64,000 nt of DNA, from NCBI GenBank assembly GCA_947489665.1, contig CANLEH010000003.1, forward strand, positions 401,400-465,399. Direction: 5' to 3'. A program made the position numbers and the translations under genes. Positions 6,040 to 33,821 of this stretch are shown piece by piece (within the stretch, counting starts at the first letter, position 1; each line of letters starts with the position of its first letter). Source of the stretch: an uncultured Roseicyclus sp. Lineage in GTDB: Bacteria; Pseudomonadota; Alphaproteobacteria; Rhodobacterales; Rhodobacteraceae. The notes under the pieces are model-generated. The model searched no databases. It was given only the letters and a program-made list of their open reading frames with translations, and had not been told where the DNA came from.

Positions 6040-6118
6040 ACGGTTACATCCATAGACAAGCGGCGTTCCGCGGGGTCATGTCATGCCAACGGAACAAGAC
6101 ATTACGGGGACGCGGCAC

Positions 6119-6805
6119 ATGGCTAACCTGAAGAAAATCCTTCTCGTCGACGATGATGACGATCTGCGCGAAGCGCTCAGCGAACAGCTGGTGATGACCG
6201 AAGACTTCGATGTCTTTGAGGCCGCCAACGGAAGCCAGGCGATGGAGCGTGCGAAGGAAGGCATCTACGACCTCGTGATCCTTGACGTGGGCCTGCCCGA
6301 TACCGATGGCCGCGAATTGTGCCGCTTGATGCGCAAGCAAGGCGTGAAATGCCCTGTCTTGATGCTGACCGGCCATGACAGCGACGCCGACACAATCCTG
6401 GGCCTGGATGCGGGCGCCAACGATTATGTCACCAAGCCATTCCGCTTTCCGGTGCTTCTGGCCCGTATTCGGGCGCAATTGCGGCAGCACGAGCAATCGG
6501 AAGACGCCGTTTTCCAGCTTGGGCCGTACACATTCAAGCCCGCCATGAAGATGCTGATCACCGAGGATGAGCGTAAGATTCGCCTTACGGAGAAGGAAAC
6601 AAACATCCTCAAGTTCCTGTATCGTGCACAGGATGGCGTCGTTGCGCGTGACATTCTTCTGCATGAAGTCTGGGGCTACAATGCCGGTGTCACGACCCAC
6701 ACGCTTGAGACACATATCTACCGTCTGCGGCAGAAAATCGAACCAGATCCGTCTAATGCGCGCCTTCTTGTGACCGAATCGGGCGGCTATCGTCTGGTTG
6801 CGTGA
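6119..6805 (+). CDS. OmpR/PhoB-family DNA-binding response regulator (orphan)
   Basis: This is a two-component transcription factor. The receiver domain (residues 1-120) has the acidic pocket DDDDD at 11-15, phospho-acceptor Asp56 (VILDVGLP), the conserved Thr84 and Lys106 (TKPFR). A winged-helix DNA-binding domain covers about 135-227 (LTEKETNILKFL, YRLRQKIE). ATG 6119 has a GGGGA site 10 bases upstream; the earlier ATG at 6083 has none. No histidine kinase is adjacent, so its partner is elsewhere. It resembles the envelope/cell-division regulators such as CenR kept in Rhodobacterales, but that assignment needs an alignment. It has its own terminator. Confidence 0.9.
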   Translation: MANLKKILLVDDDDDLREALSEQLVMTEDFDVFEAANGSQAMERAKEGIYDLVILDVGLPDTDGRELCRLMRKQGVKCPVLMLTGHDSDADTILGLDAGANDYVTKPFRFPVLLARIRAQLRQHEQSEDAVFQLGPYTFKPAMKMLITEDERKIRLTEKETNILKFLYRAQDGVVARDILLHEVWGYNAGVTTHTLETHIYRLRQKIEPDPSNARLLVTESGGYRLVA

Positions 6806-6866
6806 ACGGTAGTTCAGTACCCGTCGATGCCCGGGTTACGGCATCATCTCTCCCTGTTGGACTTGG

Positions 6867-6894
6867 CCCGGGCTTCTTGCCCGGGTCTTTTTTT
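6867..6894 (+). terminator. Rho-independent terminator of the response regulator
   Basis: CCCGGGC / GCCCGGG (7-bp stem, loop TTCTT) is followed by a run of T (TCTTTTTTT). It isolates the regulator from the SoxR-type promoter that starts 11 bases later. Confidence 0.9.
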
Positions 6895-6904
6895 GAAAAA
6901 GCGC

Positions 6905-6935
6905 TTTACCTCAAGTGGACTTGAGGAATTATAGA
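6905..6935 (+). promoter_or_regulatory. SoxR-type operator and promoter
   Basis: The 18-bp palindrome CCTCAAGT-GG-ACTTGAGG (6909-6926) differs from the classic enterobacterial soxS operator only in the two central bases. It is set between a -35 TTTACC (6905-6910) and a -10 TATAGA (6930-6935) with a 19-bp spacer. The overlong spacer is the hallmark of MerR-family activators such as SoxR, which untwist the DNA when oxidised. Transcription should begin about 6942, upstream of the VOC gene at 6965. Confidence 0.9.
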
Positions 6936-6964
6936 TGAGTCGTCCCGAACTTCAGGAGAAGACC

Positions 6965-7342
6965 ATGCAAGCCACTCTCGAACATCTTAACGTGACAGTG
7001 CCGGACCCCGTCGCTTCTGCCGCTATGCTGGAGGATATCTTCGGATGGCGCATTCGCTGGCAAGGCAGTGCCAAAGGGGACGGGTATTCTGTGCATGTTG
7101 GGGGCGATGACAGCTACGTCGCGCTTTATGCGCCGGGTCCAGACTTGCAGGACGCTGCCGATTCCTACACGCAGGTGGGTGGGCTGAACCATCTGGGTGT
7201 CACCGTTGGCGATCTGGATGCGGTTGAGGCGCGGGTGAAGGCACGCGGCTACGAGGCCTATAGCCATGGAAATTACGAACCGGGCCGCCGCTTTTACTTT
7301 CGCGACGAGAATGGGCTGGAGATTGAAGTTGTAGAATATTGA
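6965..7342 (+). CDS. VOC-family (glyoxalase/bleomycin-resistance fold) protein, predicted SoxR target
   Basis: The 125-residue product has two beta-alpha-beta-beta-beta units of the vicinal oxygen chelate fold: metal-ligand-type His in LEHLNVTVPDP near the start, a second HLGVTVGDLD, and a C-terminal Glu in GLEIEVVEY. Members include glyoxalase I, dioxygenases and antibiotic-binding proteins; the substrate cannot be told. ATG 6965 has the site CAGGAGA just upstream. An earlier ATG (6935) lies on the last base of the promoter -10 box and cannot be the start. Placement behind a SoxR-type promoter and before a terminator makes it a single-gene unit likely induced by redox-cycling compounds. Confidence 0.9.
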   Translation: MQATLEHLNVTVPDPVASAAMLEDIFGWRIRWQGSAKGDGYSVHVGGDDSYVALYAPGPDLQDAADSYTQVGGLNHLGVTVGDLDAVEARVKARGYEAYSHGNYEPGRRFYFRDENGLEIEVVEY

Positions 7343-7409
7343 CCTGTGTCAAATCGGCGGCCACTCGGATCGCATATAGATACTTCACAACCTCCCTGTT
7401 GTGACTTTG

Positions 7410-7439
7410 CCCGGCGCGAGCAGCGTCGGGTTTTCTTTT
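7410..7439 (+). terminator. Rho-independent terminator of the VOC gene
   Basis: CCCGGCGC / GCGTCGGG (8 bp, one G-T pair, loop GAGCA) is followed by TTTTCTTTT. It ends two bases before the stop codon of the convergent MFS gene. Confidence 0.85.
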
Positions 7440-7441
7440 GC

Positions 7442-8680
7442 CTAGCCTTTCGGGAGGCGAAGGCGGGCCACACCATACGCGAAAAGCGCGATGAACGCGC
7501 CCGCGCCGATCAGGAACACCAGTCGCAAGGCGTCTTCGCGGCCCAAGGACGGCTCAGCCAGGGCCATGATCCAGCCGCCGGCCAACGCCCCGATGGGCAT
7601 CATGCCCCAGCCGAAGAAGCGGTAAATCGCGTTGACCCGCCCAAGCAGGGCGTCGGGAATGACACGTTGGCGGTAGGAGACCGTCACGACATTCCACAGG
7701 ACGGCGACAAAGGTTTCGAGAAACAGCAATCCGATGGCAAGGGGGATCGAGCTGAAGAGATAGAGGCCGATGAACGGCACCGGCATCAAGGCCAGTGCGA
7801 TCCATAGGCTGCGTTCCGATCCAAAGCGGCGGGCCAGCGCGGGGCACAGAAGCCCGCCCGCGACCCCGCCTGCTGCCCCTGCCGTGAGCAACATGCCATG
7901 GCCGACCGCGCCGAGGCCCAGAACCTCCTGACTATAGAGCACAAGGATTGTGAAGCCCGCCATATGGGCGGCGTTCAAGCCGCCGAGGATCAGCGCGAGT
8001 TGCAGAATCACCTTGTGTTCGCGGATCCACGTCCAGCCTGCGCGCATCTCGGCCCAGAAGCCGTCGCGTTGGCTCACAACGGCGCGGGCCGGGAAGGCGA
8101 TGGCCCAGACGGCCCATGCGGCCAGGGCAAAGCCCAAAGCCTCAAACAGGAAAGGCGCGGGGACGGCCAAGGCGATCAGAAGGCCGGCCAAGGGCGGGCC
8201 GACGAACTGGCCCATGATTTGCTCAACCGACCAAATCTGGCCGTTGGCCTCTTCCAGGCGATCTTTGTGAACGAGGCTTGGCAAAGCCGTTTGCGCGGCG
8301 TTGTCACGGAATACCTCAGCGGTGCCCATCAGGAAGGCCAGTGCTGAAAGCCCCGCAATTTGCCAGGCCACGGCCCCATCGCCGGGGCCGGACAGGATCA
8401 GGGCGACAACGGCAAGCGCCAGCGCCATACGCGTCAGATCGGCCCGCACCATCATGCGCTGACGGTCGGCACGGTCGGTCAGAACGCCCACTGGCAGCGA
8501 CCACAGGAACCACGGGACGCGCGTGGCGAAGGCCACGATCGCAAGCGCCCTGGGGTCTGTGGTGATGAGTGTCGCAAGCCAGGGAAAGGCCAGCACGCCG
8601 ATGCCATCGGACAGGTTCGACAGCCCCGCCCCCGACATGAGCAGGCGAAAGTTGCGGTTTTCCTTGAGCAATGCGGCCAT
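7442..8680 (-). CDS. MFS transporter (EntS/DHA3-like exporter)
   Basis: This is an inner-membrane proton-coupled exporter of the major facilitator superfamily. From ATG 8680 it has 412 residues with about 12 hydrophobic segments. The loop after TM2 carries the MFS motif A form GVLTDRADRQRMM. The N-terminus (ENRNFRLLMSGAGLSNLSDGI) and the central QIMGQFVGPPLAGLLIAL segment are typical of the EntS/DHA3 branch that exports siderophores or drugs. The substrate is unknown. Start 8680 is chosen over the longer 8716 because MAALLKENRNFRLL is the usual beginning; the longer form would overlap the start of the divergent hydrolase gene. Confidence 0.85.
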   Translation of the reverse strand: MAALLKENRNFRLLMSGAGLSNLSDGIGVLAFPWLATLITTDPRALAIVAFATRVPWFLWSLPVGVLTDRADRQRMMVRADLTRMALALAVVALILSGPGDGAVAWQIAGLSALAFLMGTAEVFRDNAAQTALPSLVHKDRLEEANGQIWSVEQIMGQFVGPPLAGLLIALAVPAPFLFEALGFALAAWAVWAIAFPARAVVSQRDGFWAEMRAGWTWIREHKVILQLALILGGLNAAHMAGFTILVLYSQEVLGLGAVGHGMLLTAGAAGGVAGGLLCPALARRFGSERSLWIALALMPVPFIGLYLFSSIPLAIGLLFLETFVAVLWNVVTVSYRQRVIPDALLGRVNAIYRFFGWGMMPIGALAGGWIMALAEPSLGREDALRLVFLIGAGAFIALFAYGVARLRLPKG

Positions 8681-8715
8681 GCTGACAGCTTGCGCAGAAG
8701 CACAGGCTGGGCACA

Positions 8716-9690
8716 ATGTTGGGGATGCGATTTCTCATCCGCCTTTTGATGTGTCTTGTCTTGCTGATTGTCCTGGCGTTGGCCGGGCTGAGGCTTGCCG
8801 CGCATCTACGCGAGACGGAGGATGCCTATGCCAGCCCCGATATGGGGCGCTTTGTTCATACCGAGCTCGGGCCGATCTACGCCATTGCGATGGGCCCGCC
8901 CGAGGGTGAGCATGTGCTTCTGATCCACGGGTCTGTCGGCTGGTCAGGCGCTTGGCTGCACACGATGGAGGTTCTGGCAGAGGCGGGATATTTTGCGGTG
9001 GCCATTGATGTGCCGCCGATGGGGTATTCCGGGCGCGCGCCGGATGGGGATTATGGCCGCGCCGCAAATGCCGACCGTATTCTGGCGTTTATCGACACCC
9101 TTGGCATCGACCCGCACATCGTGGCCCATTCCTTTGGGGCAGGGGCGGCGGTTGAGGCGGTCATGGATTGGCCCGCCAGCGCCCAGTCGCTGACGATTAT
9201 CGCGGGCGCGCTGCCGCTTGATCCTGACGGGACGGCGGAATTGCCAGCCTATCTGCGCCCGGTTTGGCTGCGGGAGGTGATTGTCTCTGCCACTGTGACC
9301 AACCCGATTGCGGCGCGTCCGCTGTTGCAGGCCTTCCTGCACCGGGATGACGCGGCCACCGACGAAGTGCTGACGACCCTGCGAATGCCGGCCACGCAAG
9401 AGGGTGCGACCGAAGCGTTGGCCCGCTGGCTTCCGACGCTGCTGGTTCCGCCAAGCGACCTGCCCTCTGTCCGATCGCAGGCTTACCGCGAGCTGTCCTT
9501 GCCCGTCGAGTTGATCTGGGGGGCCGAGGACACGACCACGCCACTGGCGGACGGTGAAAACCTGGCCGCATTGATCCCCGGCGCGACACTGACCGTGATC
9601 CCGGATGTGGGGCATATCCCGATGATCGAAGACGAGGCGGCGTTTCACCGGGCGCTGCTGGCCGCGCTGGCGCGCAACAGCGCGCCGTAA
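8716..9690 (+). CDS. Membrane-anchored alpha/beta hydrolase
   Basis: This is a serine hydrolase of unknown substrate. One N-terminal hydrophobic segment (about residues 5-27) should anchor it, with the catalytic domain in the periplasm. The oxyanion motif is LLIHGSVG (68-75). The nucleophile elbow is AHSFGAG with Ser139, slightly changed from GxSxG because Ala replaces the first Gly. The acid is in WGAEDTTTPL (about 272) and the His in VGHIPMIED (about 300). The start may be ATG 8716 or ATG 8725. It is divergent from the MFS gene with very little promoter space. Confidence 0.82.
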   Translation: MLGMRFLIRLLMCLVLLIVLALAGLRLAAHLRETEDAYASPDMGRFVHTELGPIYAIAMGPPEGEHVLLIHGSVGWSGAWLHTMEVLAEAGYFAVAIDVPPMGYSGRAPDGDYGRAANADRILAFIDTLGIDPHIVAHSFGAGAAVEAVMDWPASAQSLTIIAGALPLDPDGTAELPAYLRPVWLREVIVSATVTNPIAARPLLQAFLHRDDAATDEVLTTLRMPATQEGATEALARWLPTLLVPPSDLPSVRSQAYRELSLPVELIWGAEDTTTPLADGENLAALIPGATLTVIPDVGHIPMIEDEAAFHRALLAALARNSAP

Positions 9691-31760: not shown

Positions 31761-33821
31761 ATGCTGGTCGCGCATCCCGACGCCTCTGCAATCCTGAAGT
31801 CGACTTTTGGCTTCGACGACTTTCGGCCTGGCCAGGCCGAGATCGTGGAGGCTGTCGCGTCAGGCAAAAACGTGCTCGCTATCATGCCAACTGGCGGCGG
31901 CAAAAGCCTGTGCTTTCAGCTGCCTGCGCTGATGCGCGACGGGGTTACTGTTGTCATCTCGCCCCTCATCGCACTGATGCGCGATCAGGTCCGCGGCCTG
32001 CGCGAGGCAGGGGTTGAGGCAGGCGCTCTAACCTCCGGCAATACGCCCGAGGAAACGGATGCCGTCTGGGAAGGCCTGCAAAACGGTACCCTGAAACTCC
32101 TCTACATCGCGCCCGAACGCCTTGCCTCAGGCGGCACCGAACGGATGCTCAGTCGCGCCGGTGTCAGCCTGATCGCCGTGGATGAGGCCCATTGTGTCAG
32201 CCAATGGGGCCATGATTTCCGCCCCGACTACCTGCGCATCGGGGCGCTGCGCCGCGCGCTCAATGTGCCCATCGCCGCCTTCACCGCCACCGCCGACGCT
32301 GAAACCCGCACCGAGATCTGCCACCGCCTGTTCGACGATAACGAGCCCGAGATCTTCCTGCGCGGCTTTGACCGCCCAAACCTCGCTCTGGCCTTTGAGG
32401 TCAAAAACCAACCCCGCCAACAAATCCTCTCCTTCGCCGCCGCCCGTAAAGGCCAATCCGGCATCGTCTACACCGGTACCCGCGCCAAGACAGAGACACT
32501 GGCACAGGGCCTGCGCGAGGCCGGGCACAATGCTTGTCACTACCATGCCGGTATGGATGTCGATGATCGCCGCGTCGTTGAACAGCGCTTCAACACGGAA
32601 GATGGCTTGATCGTCTGCGCCACGGTGGCCTTCGGGATGGGCGTCGACAAACCCGACATCCGCTGGGTCGCCCATGCCGACCTGCCGAAAAGCATTGAAA
32701 GTTACTATCAGGAAATCGGCCGCGCGGGCCGGGATGGGTCACCTGCCGATACACTCACGCTCTACGGCCCCGATGATATTCGCTTTCGCCGCCAACAGAT
32801 CGACGAAGGCCTGGCCCCCCCCGAACGGAAAGAAGCCGACCATGCCCGCCTGAACGCACTGCTGGGTCTGGCTGAGGCGCAGGGATGTCGCCGTCAGGTT
32901 TTGCTTGGCTATTTTGGCGAACAGGCCGACGGCTGCGGCAATTGCGATCTCTGCGAAAAGCCACCTGAGCTGTTCGATGCCTCTGTCGCCGTGCAAAAGG
33001 CGCTGTCAGCCATGCTGCGCACAGGTGAATTTTTCGGGGCAGGTCATCTGATCGATGTGCTGCTTGGCGCGGACAACGACAAGATCCGTCAACGCGGTCA
33101 TGATCGGCTGTCCGTCTACGGTGTTGGAACCGAATTCGACAAACGCCAATGGCAGGCTGTCTTCCGGCAGATGATGGGTCGCGATTTGATCCGCCCGGAT
33201 CCGGGCCGCCACGGTGCCTTCCGCATGACCGATGCCGCTCGGCCAATCCTGCGGGGTGAGGCCTCGATCACGCTGCGCAAAGACACCATTACCAAGGCCC
33301 CCCGCCGGCCCGCCGTGAAGATGCTGGTCAGCGAAGAAGACGCACCTCTGATGTCGGCCCTCAAGGCCAGGCGCCGCGCATTGGCCGAGGATGCGCGCGT
33401 GCCGGCCTATGTGATCTTCACCGACAAGACACTGATCGAAATGGCCGAAACCAAACCCACCAGCCTCGACGCCATGGCGCGCATCTCGGGCGTCGGCGCG
33501 ACCAAACTGGAGCGTTACGGCGCGGCCTTCCTTGAGGTCATTACCGGCGACGCGCCAGAGCCCGTCCACCCCGCCCGCCGTGCGCTGGCAGGCCGTGACG
33601 CGGGCGATGTCTTCGACCGCCTGATGGAAGCCAGTCAGGAGCTGATGCGCGGCGATGACGGGACCGGAAAATACCTCTCTGTCACCCATTCGACATTGCG
33701 GAAAATCGCAGAACGTAAGCCCGACAGCCTGGAGGCGCTGGCCCGTATCAACGGCATGTCCGACCAAAAGGCCGACCGCTTTGGCGAAGCCTTCCTCGAT
33801 GTGTTGAGAGAAGCTGGATAA
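31761..33821 (+). CDS. recQ: ATP-dependent DNA helicase RecQ
   Basis: RecQ unwinds recombination and fork intermediates. The 686-residue protein has Walker A PTGGGKS (43-49), the DEAH box (about 137), the FTATAD motif III, and the HAGMD / GFGMGVDKPDIRWV motifs. A zinc site follows (GCRRQVLLGYFGE, CGNCDLC), then a winged-helix RQC. The C-terminus appears to carry two HRDC domains in tandem (about 510-585 and 610-684, each with a TLxxxAxxKPxSLxAxAxIxG pattern), where many RecQ proteins have one. No start alternatives are needed. yaaA follows 42 bases on. Confidence 0.95.
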   Translation: MLVAHPDASAILKSTFGFDDFRPGQAEIVEAVASGKNVLAIMPTGGGKSLCFQLPALMRDGVTVVISPLIALMRDQVRGLREAGVEAGALTSGNTPEETDAVWEGLQNGTLKLLYIAPERLASGGTERMLSRAGVSLIAVDEAHCVSQWGHDFRPDYLRIGALRRALNVPIAAFTATADAETRTEICHRLFDDNEPEIFLRGFDRPNLALAFEVKNQPRQQILSFAAARKGQSGIVYTGTRAKTETLAQGLREAGHNACHYHAGMDVDDRRVVEQRFNTEDGLIVCATVAFGMGVDKPDIRWVAHADLPKSIESYYQEIGRAGRDGSPADTLTLYGPDDIRFRRQQIDEGLAPPERKEADHARLNALLGLAEAQGCRRQVLLGYFGEQADGCGNCDLCEKPPELFDASVAVQKALSAMLRTGEFFGAGHLIDVLLGADNDKIRQRGHDRLSVYGVGTEFDKRQWQAVFRQMMGRDLIRPDPGRHGAFRMTDAARPILRGEASITLRKDTITKAPRRPAVKMLVSEEDAPLMSALKARRRALAEDARVPAYVIFTDKTLIEMAETKPTSLDAMARISGVGATKLERYGAAFLEVITGDAPEPVHPARRALAGRDAGDVFDRLMEASQELMRGDDGTGKYLSVTHSTLRKIAERKPDSLEALARINGMSDQKADRFGEAFLDVLREAG

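Follow-up and report, generated by a model that had tools for sequence, protein, structure and literature searches.

The window (the whole stretch of 64,000 nucleotides analysed here) contains a gene for a 125-residue VOC (glyoxalase-fold) protein (6965..7342, + strand; PF00903), positioned between an OmpR/PhoB-type response regulator gene that lies outside its unit (6083..6805, +; PF00072 and PF00486 above gathering scores) and a convergent MFS transporter gene (7442..8716, − strand; PF05977/PF07690). Using a terminator scan, we identified a Rho-independent terminator of the response regulator gene at 6865..6894 (+; stem 6865-6887 followed by a T tract), and a terminator-like hairpin with a T-rich tail 3' of the VOC gene at 7409..7439 (+). 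The upstream hairpin and T tract are kept ahead of the VOC gene in the six aligned orthologues from the genus, and as this terminator ends at about 6894, the VOC gene needs a promoter of its own. The MFS transporter is a possible functional neighbour of the VOC protein, and control of the transporter by SoxR is conjectural at this locus.

Between the terminator and the VOC gene we found a -35 element, TTTACC (6905-6910, +), identical to that of Escherichia coli soxS and invariant in the six genus orthologues, a spacer of 19 bases (6911-6929), and a -10 element, TATAGA (6930-6935, +), placed 19 bp from the -35 element. The predicted SoxR operator CCTCAAGTGGACTTGAGG (6909-6926, +) overlaps TTTACC by two bases, matches the palindrome CCTCAAGTNNACTTGAGG with no mismatches, and sits inside the lengthened spacer in the register of E. 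coli soxS (TTTACC-19-TATAGA). The preliminary description had reported a palindrome between these two elements with a 19-bp spacer, which can be read directly at 6905-6935, and a soxS-like architecture, which is borne out by comparison of the window stretch CGCTTTACCTCAAGTGGACTTGAGGAATTATA with the E. coli K-12 soxS promoter CGCTTTACCTCAAGTTAACTTGAGGAATTATA (NC_000913.3), 30 of 32 bases being identical. Over CGCTTTACCTCAAGTNNACTTGAGGAATTATA, the mismatches with soxS are the two central bases only. A generic sigma-70 scan of the locus, which allows spacers of 16-18 bp only, found no promoter, and is silent at 6905-6935 because the 19-bp spacer exceeds this range. The start of the VOC gene had been placed at 6965, and this position holds: an in-frame ATG at 6935 falls inside the -10 element, the Shine-Dalgarno sequence AGGAG (6954-6958, +) is invariant in the six genus orthologues, and, counted from the ATG at 6965, residues 1-125 can be aligned in all six. 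The exact box occurs once in the 64-kb window, the next-best match being at 31793 with three mismatches; at three mismatches or fewer, the mean number of chance matches expected in the window is 0.19.

The earlier statement that no soxR is adjacent stands for the window, but not as an absence from the genome, in which soxR is unlinked, at contig C1:1889598, and has an exact box of its own. Searching the 4.13-Mb genome with the TIGR01950 profile yielded seven MerR-type hits, of which one, a genuine SoxR, lies above the curated cut-off (182.1 vs 116.9 bits) and has the cluster motif CIGCGCLSMEHC, corresponding to CX2CXCX5C. A search of the whole genome for the box recovered two exact copies, at the VOC gene and at soxR, the latter starting 28 bp ahead of the soxR start codon, none with one or two mismatches, and three with three mismatches. 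As a reversed-pattern control gave ten matches with up to three mismatches, vs five for the true pattern, the three-mismatch boxes of this genome are noise.

We compared the locus across 13 genomes of the genus. SoxR is present in nine, and a VOC orthologue (67-100% identity) in six, all of them within those nine; a seventh VOC hit (G007, 30% identity) was taken as a different VOC protein. All six VOC promoters keep TTTACC, the palindrome and the 19-bp spacing; of the 16 specified bases, none is mismatched in G000 and G008 and one in each of G002, G005, G009 and G012. The upstream terminator and Shine-Dalgarno sequence are kept while the intervening bases vary. The operator has therefore persisted upstream of every orthologous VOC gene found in the genus, where the VOC gene is unlinked from soxR. 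The response regulator gene adjoins the MFS locus in ten of the 13 genomes, with the VOC gene between them in six. All four SoxR-less genomes keep the response regulator and MFS genes at the locus, as direct neighbours in three, and neither a box nor a VOC gene was found there in any of the four (best box match, six mismatches). The VOC gene is thus present in 6/9 genus genomes with SoxR vs 0/4 without it (p 0.049, kinship ignored). In one of the SoxR-less genomes (G004, L192), a different ORF lies between the response regulator and MFS genes, at the place of the VOC gene. The three genomes with SoxR and without the VOC gene, whose available stretches show no response regulator gene next to the MFS gene, indicate that the VOC protein is dispensable. 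The earlier proposal that the VOC gene is a SoxR target is consistent with the presence of SoxR in the genome, with the exact soxS-like box, and with the retention of the operator together with the VOC gene in the genus, and appears well founded at the level of sequence. Its pointer to phenazine- or tropone-like compounds of roseobacters as the inducers is conjectural.

We investigated the distribution of the box, SoxR and the VOC subfamily in 394 genomes of the same family, about one per genus. The exact box was found at 34 places in 25 of these genomes, and a reversed control gave none. Fifteen places are upstream of a VOC orthologue and 21 beside soxR, five of these being common to both (divergent soxR-VOC pairs); the other three belong to two small DUF1127-like ORFs (L029, L037) and one MFS gene (L026). 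It would be extraordinary if the palindrome were a decoy or a coincidence and the VOC gene a housekeeping one: three-mismatch matches do arise by chance, but the match at this promoter is exact and in register, is kept within the genus, belongs to a pattern with 34 hits vs 0 in the control, and shares its absences with SoxR.

SoxR was identified in 25/25 genomes with an exact box vs 147/369 of the others, and above the cut-off in 172/394 genomes in all; the VOC subfamily was found in 168/394. Both proteins are present in 162 genomes, the VOC protein only in six, SoxR only in ten (10/172 SoxR genomes) and neither in 216 (Fisher p 3e-89, phylogeny ignored). The VOC profile was built from 20 sequences and applied at E of at most 1e-35; besides the window's own, 14 of the 20 came from exact-box loci, a possible bias towards SoxR genomes, against which may be set the 146/168 VOC genomes without an exact box. 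The exact box is likewise absent from 147/172 SoxR genomes of the family. In four of the six SoxR-less VOC genomes (G121 and G135 being left out of this comparison), no box was found upstream of the VOC orthologue, the best match having 7-8 mismatches vs 5-7 in the reversed control. One of these four controls, G348 (L149), shows part of a SoxR-like sequence next to its operator-less VOC gene, possibly a decaying soxR-VOC pair.

Use of the palindrome by a MerR-family regulator other than SoxR is very improbable. The window's genome does contain six other MerR-like hits that fall short of the SoxR cut-off, but its sole other exact box sits at soxR, SoxR accompanies the box in every exact-box genome of the family, genus members without SoxR have neither box nor VOC gene, and the four SoxR-less VOC genomes compared have no box.

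The arrangement found in the window is not the usual one. Of the 150 VOC places listed (from the 168 genomes), soxR lies divergent and no more than 400 bp away in 104, the median gap being 108 bp. A further 22 have no listed SoxR next to them, 20 were left unassigned as the place of SoxR is unlisted, and four are in SoxR-less genomes. Similarly, a divergent SoxR was found in 74/80 publicly recorded relatives (the best 80 of at least 572), including Ruegeria, Leisingera, Sulfitobacter, Hoeflea, Roseibium, Pseudovibrio and Kordiimonas, while the six without one include both Thalassospira records; in the NCBI annotation of Ruegeria sp. TM1040 the pair is recorded as soxR and "VOC family protein". 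This mostly divergent pairing indicates that the VOC gene usually stands where E. coli has soxS. The earlier view of a lone VOC gene as a member of a SoxR regulon was therefore right in giving it SoxR as a partner, but not in treating it as an isolated extra, since it is family-wide and usually divergent from soxR. Four VOC hits were on plasmids, three in Ruegeria/Tritonibacter and one in Vibrio; no soxR was found among the features listed around the Vibrio gene.

The operators of these promoters have drifted to different degrees. In the 22 non-adjacent VOC genes, the box has 0-2 mismatches in 18, three in two, four in one and five in one; one of the 22 (G282) in fact adjoins another SoxR that is unlisted (L144), and some of the rest sit on short contigs. 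In the 80 public loci, the best box upstream of the VOC gene has 0-5 mismatches in 62 (vs 7/80 in the reversed control), 25 having five mismatches and a further 18 having 6-8; a TTG/TTT -35 element and a -10 element starting with TA occur in 19-bp register with the best box in 61/80 loci vs 0/80 in the control. A recurring drifted operator in these public loci (L053-L132) is CCTAAAGTTAGGTTTAGA. Judged by sequence, the window's box, a perfect one of E. coli type, is atypical of the family's VOC promoters.

We looked for covariation, genome by genome, between the box at the VOC gene and that at soxR in 23 pairs (19 of the 22 genomes with a non-adjacent VOC gene, and four genus genomes), leaving out G231 and G308, in which no soxR box was found, and G282, in which a second SoxR lies beside the VOC gene. 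Operator covariation was rejected (mean 1.35 vs 1.45 differences, p 0.25). In one genome (G098; L142, L158), the unlinked VOC and soxR promoters share the variant CCTCAACTTAAGTTGAGG, close to the Stenotrophomonas maltophilia mfsA box, which is only an anecdote as the 23-pair test was null.

Exact boxes occur more often next to soxR genes of a second lineage. In a tree of 125 SoxR sequences, one clade (support 0.79), picked afterwards as the best separating one, contains 81/81 of the SoxRs sharing a locus with a VOC gene and 2/44 of the others; the SoxR of the window's genome falls outside it. Its soxR is divergent from a 67-residue basic ORF with a DUF1127-like motif (L008, C1:1889546 region, − strand), which stands under the second exact box of the genome. 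Across the box from soxR, we identified a small ORF, basic and with the motif D-x-G-L/I, in 25/41 soxR loci outside the VOC-locus clade, among them 9/9 of those of the genus; one genome is counted twice among the 41. These ORFs mostly start 60-63 bp after the start of the box, behind a -35/-10 pair in register, and the two small DUF1127-like ORFs under exact boxes elsewhere in the family (L029, L037) have no soxR beside them. The motif of the ORF opposite soxR is DPHxARDxGL, which is DUF1127-like; searched with PF06568, one of nine small ORFs gave a hit, at 15.5 bits vs a gathering cut-off of 23.3, and the ORF opposite soxR was not among the matches to PF06568 in the window's own genome. DUF1127 proteins are described, in the part of the source available, as working by contacts with PhoR in Agrobacterium tumefaciens (PMC12501420). 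The single MFS gene preceded by an exact box (L026, G139:C2:453098) encodes a transporter 34% identical to that of the window (7442-8716).

What is observed is the architecture of the promoter, a SoxR encoded in the genome, the co-occurrence of SoxR and the VOC protein, the often divergent layout of their genes and their joint absence in the genus. The promoter identity, co-occurrence, divergent pairing and joint genus absence with SoxR together make SoxR control of the VOC gene at 6965 very likely, with binding and activation expected from the SoxR paradigm. The unlinked SoxR, a MerR-family [2Fe-2S] activator, would occupy the palindrome between the over-spaced -35 and -10 elements; oxidation of its cluster by redox-cycling compounds would lead to remodelling of the DNA, and RNA polymerase would then start on the VOC gene at about 6942. 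The gene product would act as a direct effector, with the place in the response that soxS has in enterics, and would most likely remove, modify or sequester a redox-active compound or an electrophile derived from it.

The VOC protein scores 44 bits against PF00903 (gathering score 20.6), and its AlphaFold2 model has a mean pLDDT of 94.1. The nearest solved folds are GloA2, E. coli GloA, FosA/FosX, TnmS3, the ChaP oxidases and L-DOPA dioxygenase, with Z of about 12-15.1 and 13-28% identity in the 50 structural alignments listed, so that the likeness of the modelled fold leaves the functions of VOC proteins unseparated. The protein falls below the cut-offs of the NCBIfam FosA (NF000094; 23.9 bits vs 275) and GloA (NF050074; 21.2 bits vs 165) models, and its sequence similarity to solved VOC proteins is weak (best E 1.2e-5). 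Across 59 VOC orthologues, H7, H76, E119 and E121 are invariant, as are H44, Y51, H101 and R109. By analogy with FosA and GloA, H7, H76, E119 and E121 are candidate metal-site residues. A precedent within the superfamily is TxDE, a VOC enzyme that, in the portion of the source available, degrades toxoflavin, a toxic heterocycle, via its reduced form (PMC3143149). From fold and precedent, we somewhat favour a VOC protein that detoxifies or sequesters redox-active compounds.

The main rival to this reading accepts SoxR control of the promoter, and holds that the VOC protein deals with secondary damage, that is, with aldehydes or electrophiles in the manner of glyoxalase I, instead of the redox cycler itself. 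GloA2 and E. coli glyoxalase I are among the closest folds by Z (14.5-15.1), and the four invariant residues H7, H76, E119 and E121 would fit a metal site of VOC type, but the score against the GloA model and the weak similarity to solved VOC proteins both count against it, and we consider it rather unlikely. It is more doubtful still that the VOC protein serves in tailoring, or in self-resistance to, a redox-active compound made by the organism itself, a role proposed for the regulons under SoxR in Streptomyces and Pseudomonas. In antibiotic-producing bacteria, the genes that SoxR controls do include those for transporters and homologues of tailoring enzymes, according to the part of the source available (PMC4146615), and the ChaP oxidases and TnmS3 are among the fold matches; however, no biosynthetic cluster is apparent by eye among the neighbouring ORFs of the window (for which profiles cover the response regulator and MFS transporter only), and the occurrence of the VOC subfamily in 168/394 genomes is broader than a single pathway would suggest.

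Returning to detoxification or sequestration of redox-active compounds, we tentatively propose a compact SoxR response of Rhodobacteraceae type, with a dedicated VOC protein in the place of SoxS as its main output. This protein would directly destroy or sequester redox-cycling marine natural products, and a second lineage of SoxR, to which the one in the window's genome belongs, would add a conserved small DUF1127-like target, perhaps as a post-transcriptional or protein-contact arm. SoxR control would supply a regulator and a stress context for a VOC subfamily that is annotated, where annotation was seen, just as "VOC family protein" (168/394 genomes), and the family would present a SoxR-effector pair instead of the enteric SoxR-SoxS. 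It would also narrow the search for substrates from the VOC superfamily at large to quinones, phenazines, flavin-like compounds, and the electrophiles that they cause. The identity of 30/32 bases with E. coli soxS in an alphaproteobacterium shows that this promoter can be strongly constrained, and the drifting operators of the divergent pairs form a natural series for the recognition and co-evolution of SoxR and its operator.

In the literature search, no SoxR-controlled VOC or glyoxalase gene appeared in titles and the starts of abstracts among the matches listed, the 2008 survey by Dietrich lying outside this search. That survey, in Science, is said to cover SoxR targets, and may already list VOC targets. 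A SoxR target is also reportedly carried on the At plasmid of A. tumefaciens. On pAtC58 of A. fabrum (L182:15371-15388), we noted a SoxR-box-like sequence, CCTCAACTAGAGTTGAGG, with two mismatches, about 70 bp before an ORF that is GNAT-type by eye; no VOC or SoxR protein is annotated in this stretch, where the gene table is incomplete. No link between SoxR and a VOC protein was found in the available parts of PMC4146615, PMC8141631, PMC8859910 and PMC4411124, and in those of PMC13210998 and PMC9355187 both words occur and no such link is made. The "SoxR" of thiosulfate oxidation in Hyphomicrobium, an ArsR-type repressor according to the part of the source available, shares the name only and was set aside. 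Within the literature searched, as far as its available parts extend, the VOC protein is thus a previously undescribed target, and the scheme of SoxR acting directly on effector genes is itself known, being established in non-enterics in the portions available of PMC4411124, PMC4146615 and PMC8859910.

A close parallel in layout is soxR-mfsA of S. maltophilia, in which, from the available part of the source, a single effector is directly under SoxR, divergent from soxR, with TTGACC, a 19-bp spacer and the box inside it, and SoxR binding to this divergent promoter was demonstrated by gel-shift (PMC4411124). The target there differs, being an efflux MFS transporter with the variant box CCTCAACTGCAGTTGAGG; an MFS gene under an exact box is found at one of the 34 places in the family (L026). 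The SoxR regulons of Streptomyces coelicolor and Pseudomonas aeruginosa are similarly small and made up of effector genes, but their targets are transporters and tailoring-type enzymes, with no VOC protein found among them in the part of the source available (PMC4146615). TxDE is likewise a metalloenzyme of the VOC superfamily that destroys a small toxic heterocycle (PMC3143149); likened here by description from part of the source, it has four modules and one His and two Glu ligands, whereas the window's protein has two modules and candidate His/His/Glu ligands by analogy. FosA/FosX, GloA, TnmS3 and ChaP share the VOC fold and a similar length with the window's protein, but only 13-28% identity. 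Finally, E. coli soxRS is alike in the operator, the -35 element, the 19-bp spacer and most of the -10 element, and, in most of the relatives examined, in the divergent layout of soxR and its target; it differs in that its target is the AraC-type activator SoxS, where here it is a VOC protein, and in that the target in the window is unlinked from soxR.
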